A stretch of 64,000 nt of DNA. It comes from Akkermansiaceae bacterium (lineage in GTDB: Bacteria > Verrucomicrobiota > Verrucomicrobiia > Verrucomicrobiales > Akkermansiaceae). The stretch lies in contig JALZUC010000021.1 in assembly GCA_023301765.1 (NCBI GenBank), positions 1 to 64,000 of the forward strand, in the 5' to 3' direction. Under the pieces are notes generated by a model. It did not search any database, was not told where the DNA came from, and saw only the letters and a list, made by a program, of their open reading frames with translations. Each line of letters opens with the position of its first letter. Position 1 is the stretch's first letter. The position numbers and the translations under genes were made by a program. Below, in pieces: positions 52,452 through 56,554 of this stretch.

Positions 52452-53855
52452 CTAAACCTCTTGTTCACGCATAGCCGCCGGCTGTGCAAGCTCAGGCACC
52501 AGAGACCGCCATCGTTCATCCCCCTTGGCAATCATTCTTTGAATATCCCGGCCAGTATGCTCTAGGAGCTCATCGTCACCACACGGAATAGAGTTAATCC
52601 GCCCCTCTTCACACAGGTAGGTATAGAGGTGTGGGAGGTGTTCCGGAGTTTGGAAATTTTCCGCCGTTACTAAGTTTTTAGTTTTCCGGTTTTTCCACGG
52701 ATACACATAAAGTGCTAGCTCATGTTTAAAGAGCCTCCCAAATGACTCAAGAATACCCCCTGCTAGATTTTCAGACCACTTTGCCTTAAATAGCTCATTA
52801 AGCAGACCTATACTTAATACAATCCCTATAGGACTGCTAGTATAGCGGCTAAGATAATTAGCTATACGGTGAAACTCTGAACAACGTGAAATAAGCACAT
52901 TTTTACCAAGTGCCTGCAAGGCGTCTGCTCGATCAATAAATGCCAACTGATCTACACCTCCATCCCTCAGTAGATTATTCATTGAAATCTCACAAAGCTC
53001 TATGGTCTGATCACGCTGATCCTCCGCAAGACTCTGCTGGAATACCTCACGCGTCTGCTTTAGCATATCCATGTGTAAGTTTGTTACAGGATTAAAACTA
53101 CCGCGCAGCAGGACTAGGGGCTTTCTGTAGAGAGCCTCGGCTGGCTGGACTACCTCTCCATCTGGCAGGAACATAGCGGCATCAGTAAGCCCACTCTCTA
53201 CGAGCTGTAGCAAGCAGAGCCTATTGTCCACCATCTCAAATCCTTTCCCACTGAACTTGAGCATATCCACCTCTACCTGCTCACGGCTCAGCCCATCCAT
53301 GAGCGATTCAGTAAATAATTTAAGGTTATCTCGGTAATAGAACGCGGCGTAAATAAGGTTTGTGCCAATAATCCCCAAGGCCTCCATTTGATCAACATTA
53401 TCCTGATCTAGTAGCCTAACATGAATGAGTATCTCACACGGCGCATGGCATGGCTTCAGCTGCAGCTGTATGCCTAGCCAGCCGTGGCACTCCCCTGTGT
53501 CCTTATAGCCACGGGCTCTGACTGTATTTGAAAATGAAAAGAAAGTAGTGTCAGCCCCGCGTTTATCAGAGAGACGCTCTACTAGTAAGTCATACTCATA
53601 CTTTAGCATTGCACTTACACGCTCTCGGGAGACATAGCGCTTTGCCTTACCATAAATGGCATCACTCATCGTCATGTCATATGCGGAAATTGTTTTTGCT
53701 ACCGTGCCAGCAGAAGCAGAAGCACGGAAGAACCAGTTTGCCACCTCCTGCCCAGCCCCTATCTCAGCAAAGGTTCCGTATTTTCCCGAATCAAGATTAA
53801 TTCGGAGAGCCTTATCATATGTACTGGAAATGTCTGAGACTTTATCTTGTATCAT
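52452..53855 (-). CDS. Conserved nucleotidyltransferase-like protein
   Basis: A 467-residue soluble protein of a widespread but uncharacterised family, opening with KALRINLDSGKYGTFAEIGAGQEVANWFF and KRYVSRERVSAMLKYEY. I recall that these are frequently mislabelled as TonB-dependent receptors. Past the middle, LLRGSFNPVTNLHMDML resembles the GxFxPxHxGH loop of nucleotidyltransferases such as NadD, so residues about 240-440 may bind a nucleotide. There is no signal peptide or membrane segment, which rules out a receptor. It is followed by the ArgA-like gene on the same strand. Confidence 0.75.
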   Translation of the reverse strand: MIQDKVSDISSTYDKALRINLDSGKYGTFAEIGAGQEVANWFFRASASAGTVAKTISAYDMTMSDAIYGKAKRYVSRERVSAMLKYEYDLLVERLSDKRGADTTFFSFSNTVRARGYKDTGECHGWLGIQLQLKPCHAPCEILIHVRLLDQDNVDQMEALGIIGTNLIYAAFYYRDNLKLFTESLMDGLSREQVEVDMLKFSGKGFEMVDNRLCLLQLVESGLTDAAMFLPDGEVVQPAEALYRKPLVLLRGSFNPVTNLHMDMLKQTREVFQQSLAEDQRDQTIELCEISMNNLLRDGGVDQLAFIDRADALQALGKNVLISRCSEFHRIANYLSRYTSSPIGIVLSIGLLNELFKAKWSENLAGGILESFGRLFKHELALYVYPWKNRKTKNLVTAENFQTPEHLPHLYTYLCEEGRINSIPCGDDELLEHTGRDIQRMIAKGDERWRSLVPELAQPAAMREQEV

Positions 53856-54043: not shown

Positions 54044-56554
54044 CTAATCACCAAAGATTTCTACCCGCTGTGGACGATCTAATATGATAGAGGCTTTTTG
54101 ATCCTCAACTTCTAACTCATCGAGATTTAAGATCGTAGTGCTACCTCTAGCGACTGTGGAATCACGAGGGACAAAGTCTGGCTGCTCCGTGCCGTAGGGA
54201 TCATTTCCTAATAGGAGCGGCGCTGTTGGCTGCACAGGAATAGCTCGCATCAATACCGTTTGATTAGCGTCCGGATTAAACTCATGGTTCTCAGTTAATT
54301 CATCATTTGCGATGCCATGTACGTCGCAGTATCCTGAAGGCTCCGAGCCTTTTACAAAATATTCACTAAAAGTAGTAGGGTAGTATGTCTCCGTTCCCTT
54401 CACTGGATCTCTACGGTGCTCCTGACAGTATTTCGTTTTTCTTAATCCTGATGCCTTACACACTTCTAATTTCACAATCCCCTCTGGAACAGTAATCTGC
54501 TGGCCTGCAAATTCGGCAGCCGCTACATTCATAGATTCCTCCCATATGGGATACACTGTTTCTCTACTAAATGCACCTGGGTAAATCGCATCACGGCGTC
54601 CGTGGAGAAAACCCATCCATACAGCACAGGTAACATTACTATTGTATCCTACAAACCAGTTATCCGCAAAGTCATAAGTAGTACCTGTCTTACCAGCTAA
54701 CGAAGGGTCATTAGATTGCCCAGTGGTCGCCGGCTCAGCCCCTCCAGCAGCGCCATTCTTAAGGGCACTCTGTAGCAATGTATGAGCAACAAAGGCATTC
54801 TTTTCATCAATCACCTGCTTAGTAGCAGGTCTAGTCTGTAATTTGTAACGGTCACTACCTGATGCATCTTCAATACGCTGTACAACGTAGAGTGGATGTG
54901 CCTCCCGCCCTTCATTCGGAAAGACTGAATAGGCCTTAACTAGACTTGGCAGAGAAAATTCATTAGTTCCTACCAGCATACGAGTTAGCAACTTACTCTC
55001 AGGAAAACTAAGCCCAAACTTACCTGCTGTGTCCATCACTGTCGCCAAGCCTAGCTGCTTACCCAGCCGCACAGATGCCGCGATTTTTGACACCTCCATA
55101 GCCCTCCTCATTGTAACCTTACCCTCATACTTAGGCTGAAGGACTTCCATTCCCCATTCACCCAATACTCCTTCGCGCCCATCTAACATAATAGCACGAT
55201 TATTTAATGGTGCATCTGTAAGCTGTGAGGCAGGTGACATTCCACTTTCCAGAGCTGCCACATAGATAAATGGTAAAAAAGCTGTACCTATTGGCTTCCG
55301 CCCTAACTGGGCAATATCAAACTGGTTATGTGTAAAGTCCCGTCCACCCACATAAGCAATAACAGCACCAGTGTCATTTTCAGTCATAAGCCCAGCACCC
55401 TGGAGATACTCAGGTCTACCATCCTCACGCCGATATTCGGCATACTTAGGGTGAGCGTAACCACTCTTCAACTCGACATTAGTTAGCTGCTCTAGCATTC
55501 TCTTTTCCATCACCTTTTGCACATCAAGGTCGATGGTGGTAAAAATTTTAAATCCCCCCTCGGTAAGAGCATCCTCTCCTAGCTGCTGCCGCACCTCCTT
55601 TGCAATTCGTTCATAAAGATGTGATGCACCACGTTGGATAGGCTTTGGATTCACGACCACAGGGCTCTCCTGAAGTTTCATGCTCTCTAGTAAAGGTATA
55701 AACCCTTCAGCCGTTAAACGTTTTAACACCTGATTCCGTGCTTTTTTATTCATCTCCAGGTTATTTAACGGAGAAATCATCGTCGGGTTTTTAATACAAC
55801 CTACAAGAGAAGCACACTCAGATAATGTTAAATCTCGAGGTTCTTTACCGAAGTATCCTAGCGCTGCGGACCTAACCCCATAGAAGCCACTACCAAACGG
55901 CACGCGATTCAAATAAAACTCCAGGATTTCAGTCTTGTTATAATGCTTCTCAATACGCTGTGCGAGATAAGCCTCTACCGCTTTCCGCTCCAGTCCACTC
56001 CAGCCTTCTTCATCAGCCTCCACTTTAAGGTGAAAAGCGTTTCGCGCCAGCTGCTGGGTGATAGTACTCGCGCCCTGTGTCTGTCTCCCCGCTCTGAAGT
56101 TCAGCCAAACTGCACGAGCTACTCCTACACGATCCACTCCATCGTGCTCAAAAAACCTCTGATCTTCACCTGACACCAGAGCGTTAATAATGTCATCAGG
56201 AACATCCTTAATACTGATAACATCTCTATTCTCTACGAAAATACGGCCTAGCTCGCGGCCTTTACGGTCCAGAATCAAACTTACAACTTCTACGTCATTA
56301 ACCTGGCTAAGGTCATACTCCTCCGCTCTATCCTTCAGCGGCTTTGTTTTAATAATAAAGACAAGCAACCCGAGACCTGCGAGGAGAATACCAAAAAGAC
56401 AGAGATAGATCAGGCATTTAAGCTTGAAGAATTTCCCCTTACGGCGCTTGATTCCCCTAGCAACAATCGCTTTCCCCAGCTTGGAATGTTTTTTACCCAT
56501 GGCAAGATGTTTCATAATTCGGCCACTCAGCGTAAAGAGCACCCAGATCTTCAT
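54044..56554 (-). CDS. Class A penicillin-binding protein with degenerate transpeptidase motifs
   Basis: Up to 836 residues; ATGs at 56515 and 56500 are alternative starts and 56500 leaves more room for promoters. A membrane helix (about 46-68) is followed by a GT51 glycosyltransferase (about 85-270) with intact motifs: EDQRFFEHDG (130-139), GASTITQQLARN (161-172) and KTEILEFYLNRVPFGSG. The transpeptidase domain (about 385-700) has the fold but changed catalytic motifs: the usual SxxK is TAFL at 424-427, the usual SxN is SKI at 489-491, while KTGT (622-625) is kept. It should still polymerise glycan; peptide crosslinking is doubtful. It is divergent from the methyltransferase gene. Confidence 0.9.
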   Translation of the reverse strand: MKIWVLFTLSGRIMKHLAMGKKHSKLGKAIVARGIKRRKGKFFKLKCLIYLCLFGILLAGLGLLVFIIKTKPLKDRAEEYDLSQVNDVEVVSLILDRKGRELGRIFVENRDVISIKDVPDDIINALVSGEDQRFFEHDGVDRVGVARAVWLNFRAGRQTQGASTITQQLARNAFHLKVEADEEGWSGLERKAVEAYLAQRIEKHYNKTEILEFYLNRVPFGSGFYGVRSAALGYFGKEPRDLTLSECASLVGCIKNPTMISPLNNLEMNKKARNQVLKRLTAEGFIPLLESMKLQESPVVVNPKPIQRGASHLYERIAKEVRQQLGEDALTEGGFKIFTTIDLDVQKVMEKRMLEQLTNVELKSGYAHPKYAEYRREDGRPEYLQGAGLMTENDTGAVIAYVGGRDFTHNQFDIAQLGRKPIGTAFLPFIYVAALESGMSPASQLTDAPLNNRAIMLDGREGVLGEWGMEVLQPKYEGKVTMRRAMEVSKIAASVRLGKQLGLATVMDTAGKFGLSFPESKLLTRMLVGTNEFSLPSLVKAYSVFPNEGREAHPLYVVQRIEDASGSDRYKLQTRPATKQVIDEKNAFVAHTLLQSALKNGAAGGAEPATTGQSNDPSLAGKTGTTYDFADNWFVGYNSNVTCAVWMGFLHGRRDAIYPGAFSRETVYPIWEESMNVAAAEFAGQQITVPEGIVKLEVCKASGLRKTKYCQEHRRDPVKGTETYYPTTFSEYFVKGSEPSGYCDVHGIANDELTENHEFNPDANQTVLMRAIPVQPTAPLLLGNDPYGTEQPDFVPRDSTVARGSTTILNLDELEVEDQKASIILDRPQRVEIFGD

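Follow-up and report, generated by a model that had tools for sequence, protein, structure and literature searches.

Class A penicillin-binding proteins (PBPs) are described as enzymes with two activities, and in surveys they are counted by homology. The window, a 64,000-nucleotide stretch of an Akkermansiaceae genome, contains a class A PBP gene for which a preliminary description had claimed an intact glycosyltransferase (GT) joined to an apparently dead transpeptidase (TP). The locus raises the question of whether such a TP domain is an error, a relic, an enzyme of unusual chemistry, or a part that is kept for another job.

Domain layout and transpeptidase motifs

The open reading frame was found to be frameshift-free and to code for 836 aa (Table 1). 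The listed ATG probably lies too far upstream, and translation more likely starts at Met19 (56500; gene 54044–56500), since most orthologue alignments begin only at about residues 14–19. Pfam searches detected a Transgly domain (residues 100–280, 195.9 bits) and a Transpeptidase domain (residues 387–646, 63.2 bits, the cut-off being 22.1). Together with a PDB profile match, they revealed the class A architecture of anchor (a sequence reading only), GT51 domain and TP domain in a single chain. The GT51 motifs ED130QRFFEHDG, GASTITQQLARN, RKAVEAYLAQRIE and ILEFYLN are all present; the preliminary description was right about their presence and wrong in counting three, as about five motifs are conserved in the GT51 fold. 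AlphaFold2 modelling of the window protein from 10 sequences gave pLDDT values of 36.8 and 31.3, the alignment depth probably being too low.

Table 1. Features of the class A PBP gene, in window coordinates
Feature	Position	Strand	Basis
Class A PBP gene, GT51 + degenerate TP	54044..56554	(-)	836 aa; Pfam/NCBIfam matches
N-terminal hydrophobic anchor, residues ~42-70	56345..56431	(-)	translation; position inferred from hydrophobicity
GT51 domain, residues 100-280; E130, GASTITQQLARN, RKxxE, ILEFYLN intact	55715..56257	(-)	Pfam, motif reading
Degenerate TP domain, residues 387-646	54617..55396	(-)	Pfam, PDB profile alignment
TP motif 1 GTAFLPF (423-429), for GSxFKPF	55268..55288	(-)	codons, orthologue/PDB alignments
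TP motif 2 SKI (489-491), for SxN; Asn->Ile491	55082..55090	(-)	orthologue/PDB alignments
TP motif 3 KTGT (622-625), kept	54680..54691	(-)	orthologue alignment
GREGVLGEWGME block (459-470), TP domain	55145..55180	(-)	clade-specific conservation
C-terminal segment with C699, C710, C743	54317..54460	(-)	Cys common to active class A PBPs

PBP catalysis needs both a Ser and a Lys. In the window protein the nucleophile Ser is replaced by Thr424 (ACA) and the general base Lys by Leu427 (TTA), so that no SxxK is present; residues 489–491 read SKI and not SxN, and KTGT is found at 622–625. In a profile alignment, these three sites fall on GS[SI][FI]KPF, S[RK]N and KTGTT of solved class A PBPs (5u2g, 4oon and 3udf), of which 4oon is P. 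aeruginosa PBP1A and 3udf A. baumannii PBP1a. The motif reading and the alignment thus bore out what had been claimed, namely GTAFLPF in place of a GSTFKPF-type SxxK, SKI in place of SxN, KTGT as the only motif remaining, and codons ACA and TTA with no frameshift nearby.

The protein resembles the bifunctional class A PBPs of the PBP1A family (TIGR02074) in its anchor, GT51 motifs, linker, TP domain, KTGT and C-terminal Cys segment, but differs from them in having other residues in place of the nucleophile Ser, the base Lys and the SxN Asn, and it scores below the curated cut-off (433.6 versus 508.75 bits). Its predicted reaction, GT51 polymerisation of lipid II only, is that of the monofunctional glycosyltransferase MtgA (TIGR02070; 107 bits against a cut-off of 182.65), from which it is set apart by a full-length TP domain under selection.

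Orthologues, origin and selection

A homologue was present in all 58 relatives searched. In a first tree of 112 sequences, 72 made one clade with the window protein, and a second tree, built with more care, gave full support (100/100) to the branch between this clade and every intact class A PBP. The preliminary description had asked whether T/L and SKI are conserved, and had named orthologues that all keep SxxK as the finding that would speak against it; the opposite was found. The nucleophile position is Thr in 71 of the 72 members and Ser in one. The Lys has been lost in 67/72, its place being taken by Leu in 29 members, Phe in 20, Thr in 13, Ile in 3, and Gln and Val in one each, while 5 keep it; the Asn has been lost in 50/72, to Ile in 45, Val in 3, and Thr and Leu in one each, and is kept in 22. 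Lys622 of KTG is retained in 70 members and Thr625 in 69. As Thr recurs in 71 of 72 orthologues, the motif of the window protein is not a product of chance or error. The family is not uniformly dead, because one member (G050, L058), the only fully intact one, reads GSAFKPF/SKN/KTGT, and four of the five members that keep Lys have it next to Thr. The genome of the intact member additionally encodes a short GT51-only protein (L163). A divergent second copy near the clade (L167, in G038) reads GTAFLPL, GKT and WGGTA, so that KTG is gone too. A degenerate DNA pattern for GTA[FL]LP in the family gave matches of the same order as controls, the pattern being highly degenerate.

The clade spans the order to which the window genome belongs and, within the same class, four families beyond it; a phylum-wide sample of 115 genomes yielded no orthologue from any other class at E <= 1e-85. 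GT51 was absent altogether from 12 of 16 genomes tested from other families of the class, outside the order, and class A PBPs seem to have been lost many times within the class. Viral contigs yielded just two GT51 matches, both distant. Within the genus, the gene order around the TP-dead PBP gene is fixed, which argues for vertical inheritance; the order of fusA, a GNAT gene, a MidA-like methyltransferase gene and serA is conserved, and none of these conserved neighbours suggests a wall-related partner. The neighbour at 52452–53855 (reverse strand) is 75–86% identical within the genus and contains a nucleotidyltransferase-like GSFNPVTNLHMD stretch; it had no Pfam or NCBIfam match. On the evidence of the orthologues, the predicted dead state of the TP domain is ancient and clade-wide, and is neither an error nor a fresh pseudogene. 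The likeliest course of events is that Ser changed to Thr first, once at the base of the clade, G050 having either reverted or kept its Ser, and that losses of Lys and Asn followed on several occasions, an order inferred from a tree whose base is not fully resolved.

Comparison of the two domains within the genus revealed that GT identity exceeds TP identity in the TP-dead protein (82–88% versus 61–78%) and in the strongly decayed paralogue described below, hereafter the C type (73–87% versus 50–64%), whereas the reverse holds for the intact paralogue (TP 73–91% versus GT 66–88%), which implies that constraint moved from the TP to the GT domain in both TP-dead lineages. Because synonymous sites are saturated within the genus of the window, dN/dS was taken from pairs of Akkermansia species, where the TP domain of the TP-dead clade gave about 0.03–0.15, compared with about 0.035 for the active TP and 0.07–0.10 for the TP of the decayed paralogue. 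Such values indicate purifying selection, so that the domain is no decaying relic. In the clade, the GT motif residues E130 and S163 are conserved at 100% and 98%. Thr424 (98%), Lys622, Gly624 and Thr625 (93–98%) belong, together with Pro428, to the most conserved TP columns; position 427 shows the median variability of the domain. In the GxLGEWGxE block (462–470), G462, E466, G468 and E470 reach 97–100% in the clade and are not so conserved in active paralogues. The conservation of Thr424, Lys622, Gly624 and Thr625 goes beyond the needs of a bare scaffold, which leaves room for ligand binding or residual chemistry.

Wall enzymes of the same genome and of relatives

The source genome (2.46 Mb, 68 contigs, 97.8% complete) contains three GT51 genes, namely that of the window, one for a class A PBP with intact motifs (L010 2478–4895; GSVFKPF, SRN, KTGT) and, directly downstream of the latter, the C-type gene for a second TP-dead class A PBP (L010 4924–6570, contig C27; 548 aa). 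The C-type protein has intact GT51 motifs, reads LGPMYTPF and has neither SxN nor KTG. Like the window protein, it and its A. muciniphila counterpart combine an intact GT51 domain with a TP predicted to be non-catalytic, but the C type is far more decayed and shorter, and lacks SxN and KTG. It branches with the active paralogue, so its loss of TP was independent of that in the window clade. The C-type and intact genes stand in tandem in the genus of the window and in several others, and apart in A. muciniphila.

The three class B PBPs of the source genome retain SxxK, SxN and KTGT, and the genome has two SEDS proteins and 11 YkuD-domain matches. Other cross-linkers are therefore plentiful, and the earlier suggestion that the protein relies on another enzyme for cross-linking is supported by one intact class A PBP, three class B PBPs and the YkuD matches.

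By their motifs, the class A PBPs of A. muciniphila (G062, which we take to be the type strain on the basis of a 16S primer match in three copies) likewise comprise one active and two dead proteins. Its active protein reads GSLFKPF/SRN/KTGT, its TP-dead orthologue GTAILPF/SKI/KTGT, and its second TP-dead PBP (L152) GDLFTPI without SxN or KTG. One SEDS (FtsW/RodA) match was found in a further genome (G063) and none in that of A. muciniphila, possibly because a stretch is missing; A. muciniphila may lack RodA. In two genomes of one reduced genus (G017 and G029; 1.5–1.6 Mb, 90% complete), a single GT51 gene was found, and it is of the TP-dead type; each encodes three PF00905 proteins, and the two class B PBPs checked per genome keep their motifs. 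That the TP-dead type is the only GT51 protein there is suggestive, the absence of others being read from 90%-complete assemblies on which both species agree. In other families, GT51 frames of 1200–1350 aa (L117 and L118, in G290 and G296) read GSLLQPF/GALLQPF, ANQ/ANR and MTGYS/MSGYS, and probably represent a third independent TP-dead class A lineage.

Role of the degenerate transpeptidase domain

We consider it probable that the window protein is a glycan-polymerising class A PBP whose pseudo-transpeptidase is kept for a non-catalytic job, the strands being cross-linked by other enzymes. The residue loss, its clade-wide conservation, the purifying selection on the TP domain and the intact cross-linkers are observed. 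The membrane-anchored protein would polymerise lipid II into glycan strands via its GT51 domain, and its TP domain, with Ser changed to Thr, Lys to Leu and the Asn of SxN to Ile, would be a pseudoenzyme that is presumably not acylated and forms no cross-links. Supplying these would fall to the class A PBP with intact motifs, to the class B PBPs or to L,D-transpeptidases. Selection would keep the TP fold, whose simplest job may be support or regulation of the GT together with docking in a synthesis complex. Both earlier readings, a polymerase that depends on another cross-linker and a TP turned scaffold, fit the sequence evidence and are compatible with each other.

Both halves of this explanation have precedents in known systems. 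S. aureus PBP2 is thought to provide the glycosyltransferase for PBP2A (PMC12369386), and in MRSA, too, strands made by a class A GT are thus thought to be cross-linked by another protein; the TP of PBP2 is intact and blocked by the drug, whereas the loss described here lies in the sequence and has become fixed throughout a clade. In B. subtilis, catalytically dead PBP 2B (S309A) still serves a structural role, another PBP supplying the activity (PMC5656894), which likewise is a role without catalysis, but in a laboratory mutant of a class B protein and not in a natural class A one.

A non-catalytic sensor of stem peptides, whose KTGT strand and Thr424 bind donor or acceptor and so tune the GT or recruit a cross-linker, is a sharper form of the same explanation and, as such, a reading to which we give minor weight. 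It would account for the retention of Lys622, Gly624, Thr625 and Thr424 at 93–98% despite the apparent loss of catalysis, while position 427 has drifted. Moreover, neither SxN nor KTG survives in the tandem TP-dead paralogue, so retention in the window clade is not automatic. Against it, the conservation may be structural, as KTG lies on a core strand beside the active site. For the order-wide family we propose, tentatively and as an idea that we think rather improbable in this specific form, that Thr424 and KTGT still let the dead TP bind stem peptides, by which it regulates lipid II polymerisation or the hand-over of strands to a separate cross-linker; the two class A activities would then have been separated by inactivating one of them in place and not by deletion of a domain.

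Continued catalysis by the TP, with Thr424 as nucleophile and some other residue as base, appears very unlikely. Thr does carry a hydroxyl and is almost invariant (71/72), and Lys persists in five members, in four of them beside Thr. The Lys is nevertheless replaced in the other 67, the window protein included, and since the position is hydrophobic (L, F, I or V) in 53 of these, residual Thr catalysis is unlikely; the Asn of SxN is also gone in 50/72, and constraint on the TP is relaxed relative to the active paralogue. Hardly any probability falls to a protein in which GT and TP are both inactive and the whole serves as a scaffold, as the GT catalytic motifs vary little or not at all in what is the most conserved domain, and the protein is the sole GT51 protein of the two reduced genomes. 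A pseudogene or a sequencing or assembly error is ruled out by the orthologues and by dN/dS, for every full-length orthologue has an open frame, dozens of independent assemblies, single-contig genomes included, show the same substitutions, and purifying selection is strong.

No published account of TP-dead class A PBPs in Verrucomicrobiota was found in the open-access literature, and neither for Akkermansia PBPs nor for Ser-to-Thr PBPs was a description of such a protein found there. Two surveys credit Akkermansia with a class A PBP, as listed in PMC8406291, or with a cell wall of the classical kind, and their passages on it make no comment on the TP.

Judged by their motifs, two of the three class A PBPs of A. 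muciniphila appear unable to cross-link. If this is true, such genomes overstate the set of beta-lactam targets, and GT and TP would be naturally uncoupled in Akkermansia. The family would also offer a natural, conserved test case for the non-catalytic service of a TP domain to its GT, with the intact orthologue of G050 as control. TP-dead class A PBPs fit a class many of whose lineages lack GT51 (12 of the 16 genomes tested). Verrucomicrobial bacteria, the gut symbiont Akkermansia among them, thus appear to carry an old and conserved PBP whose cross-linking half is dead.
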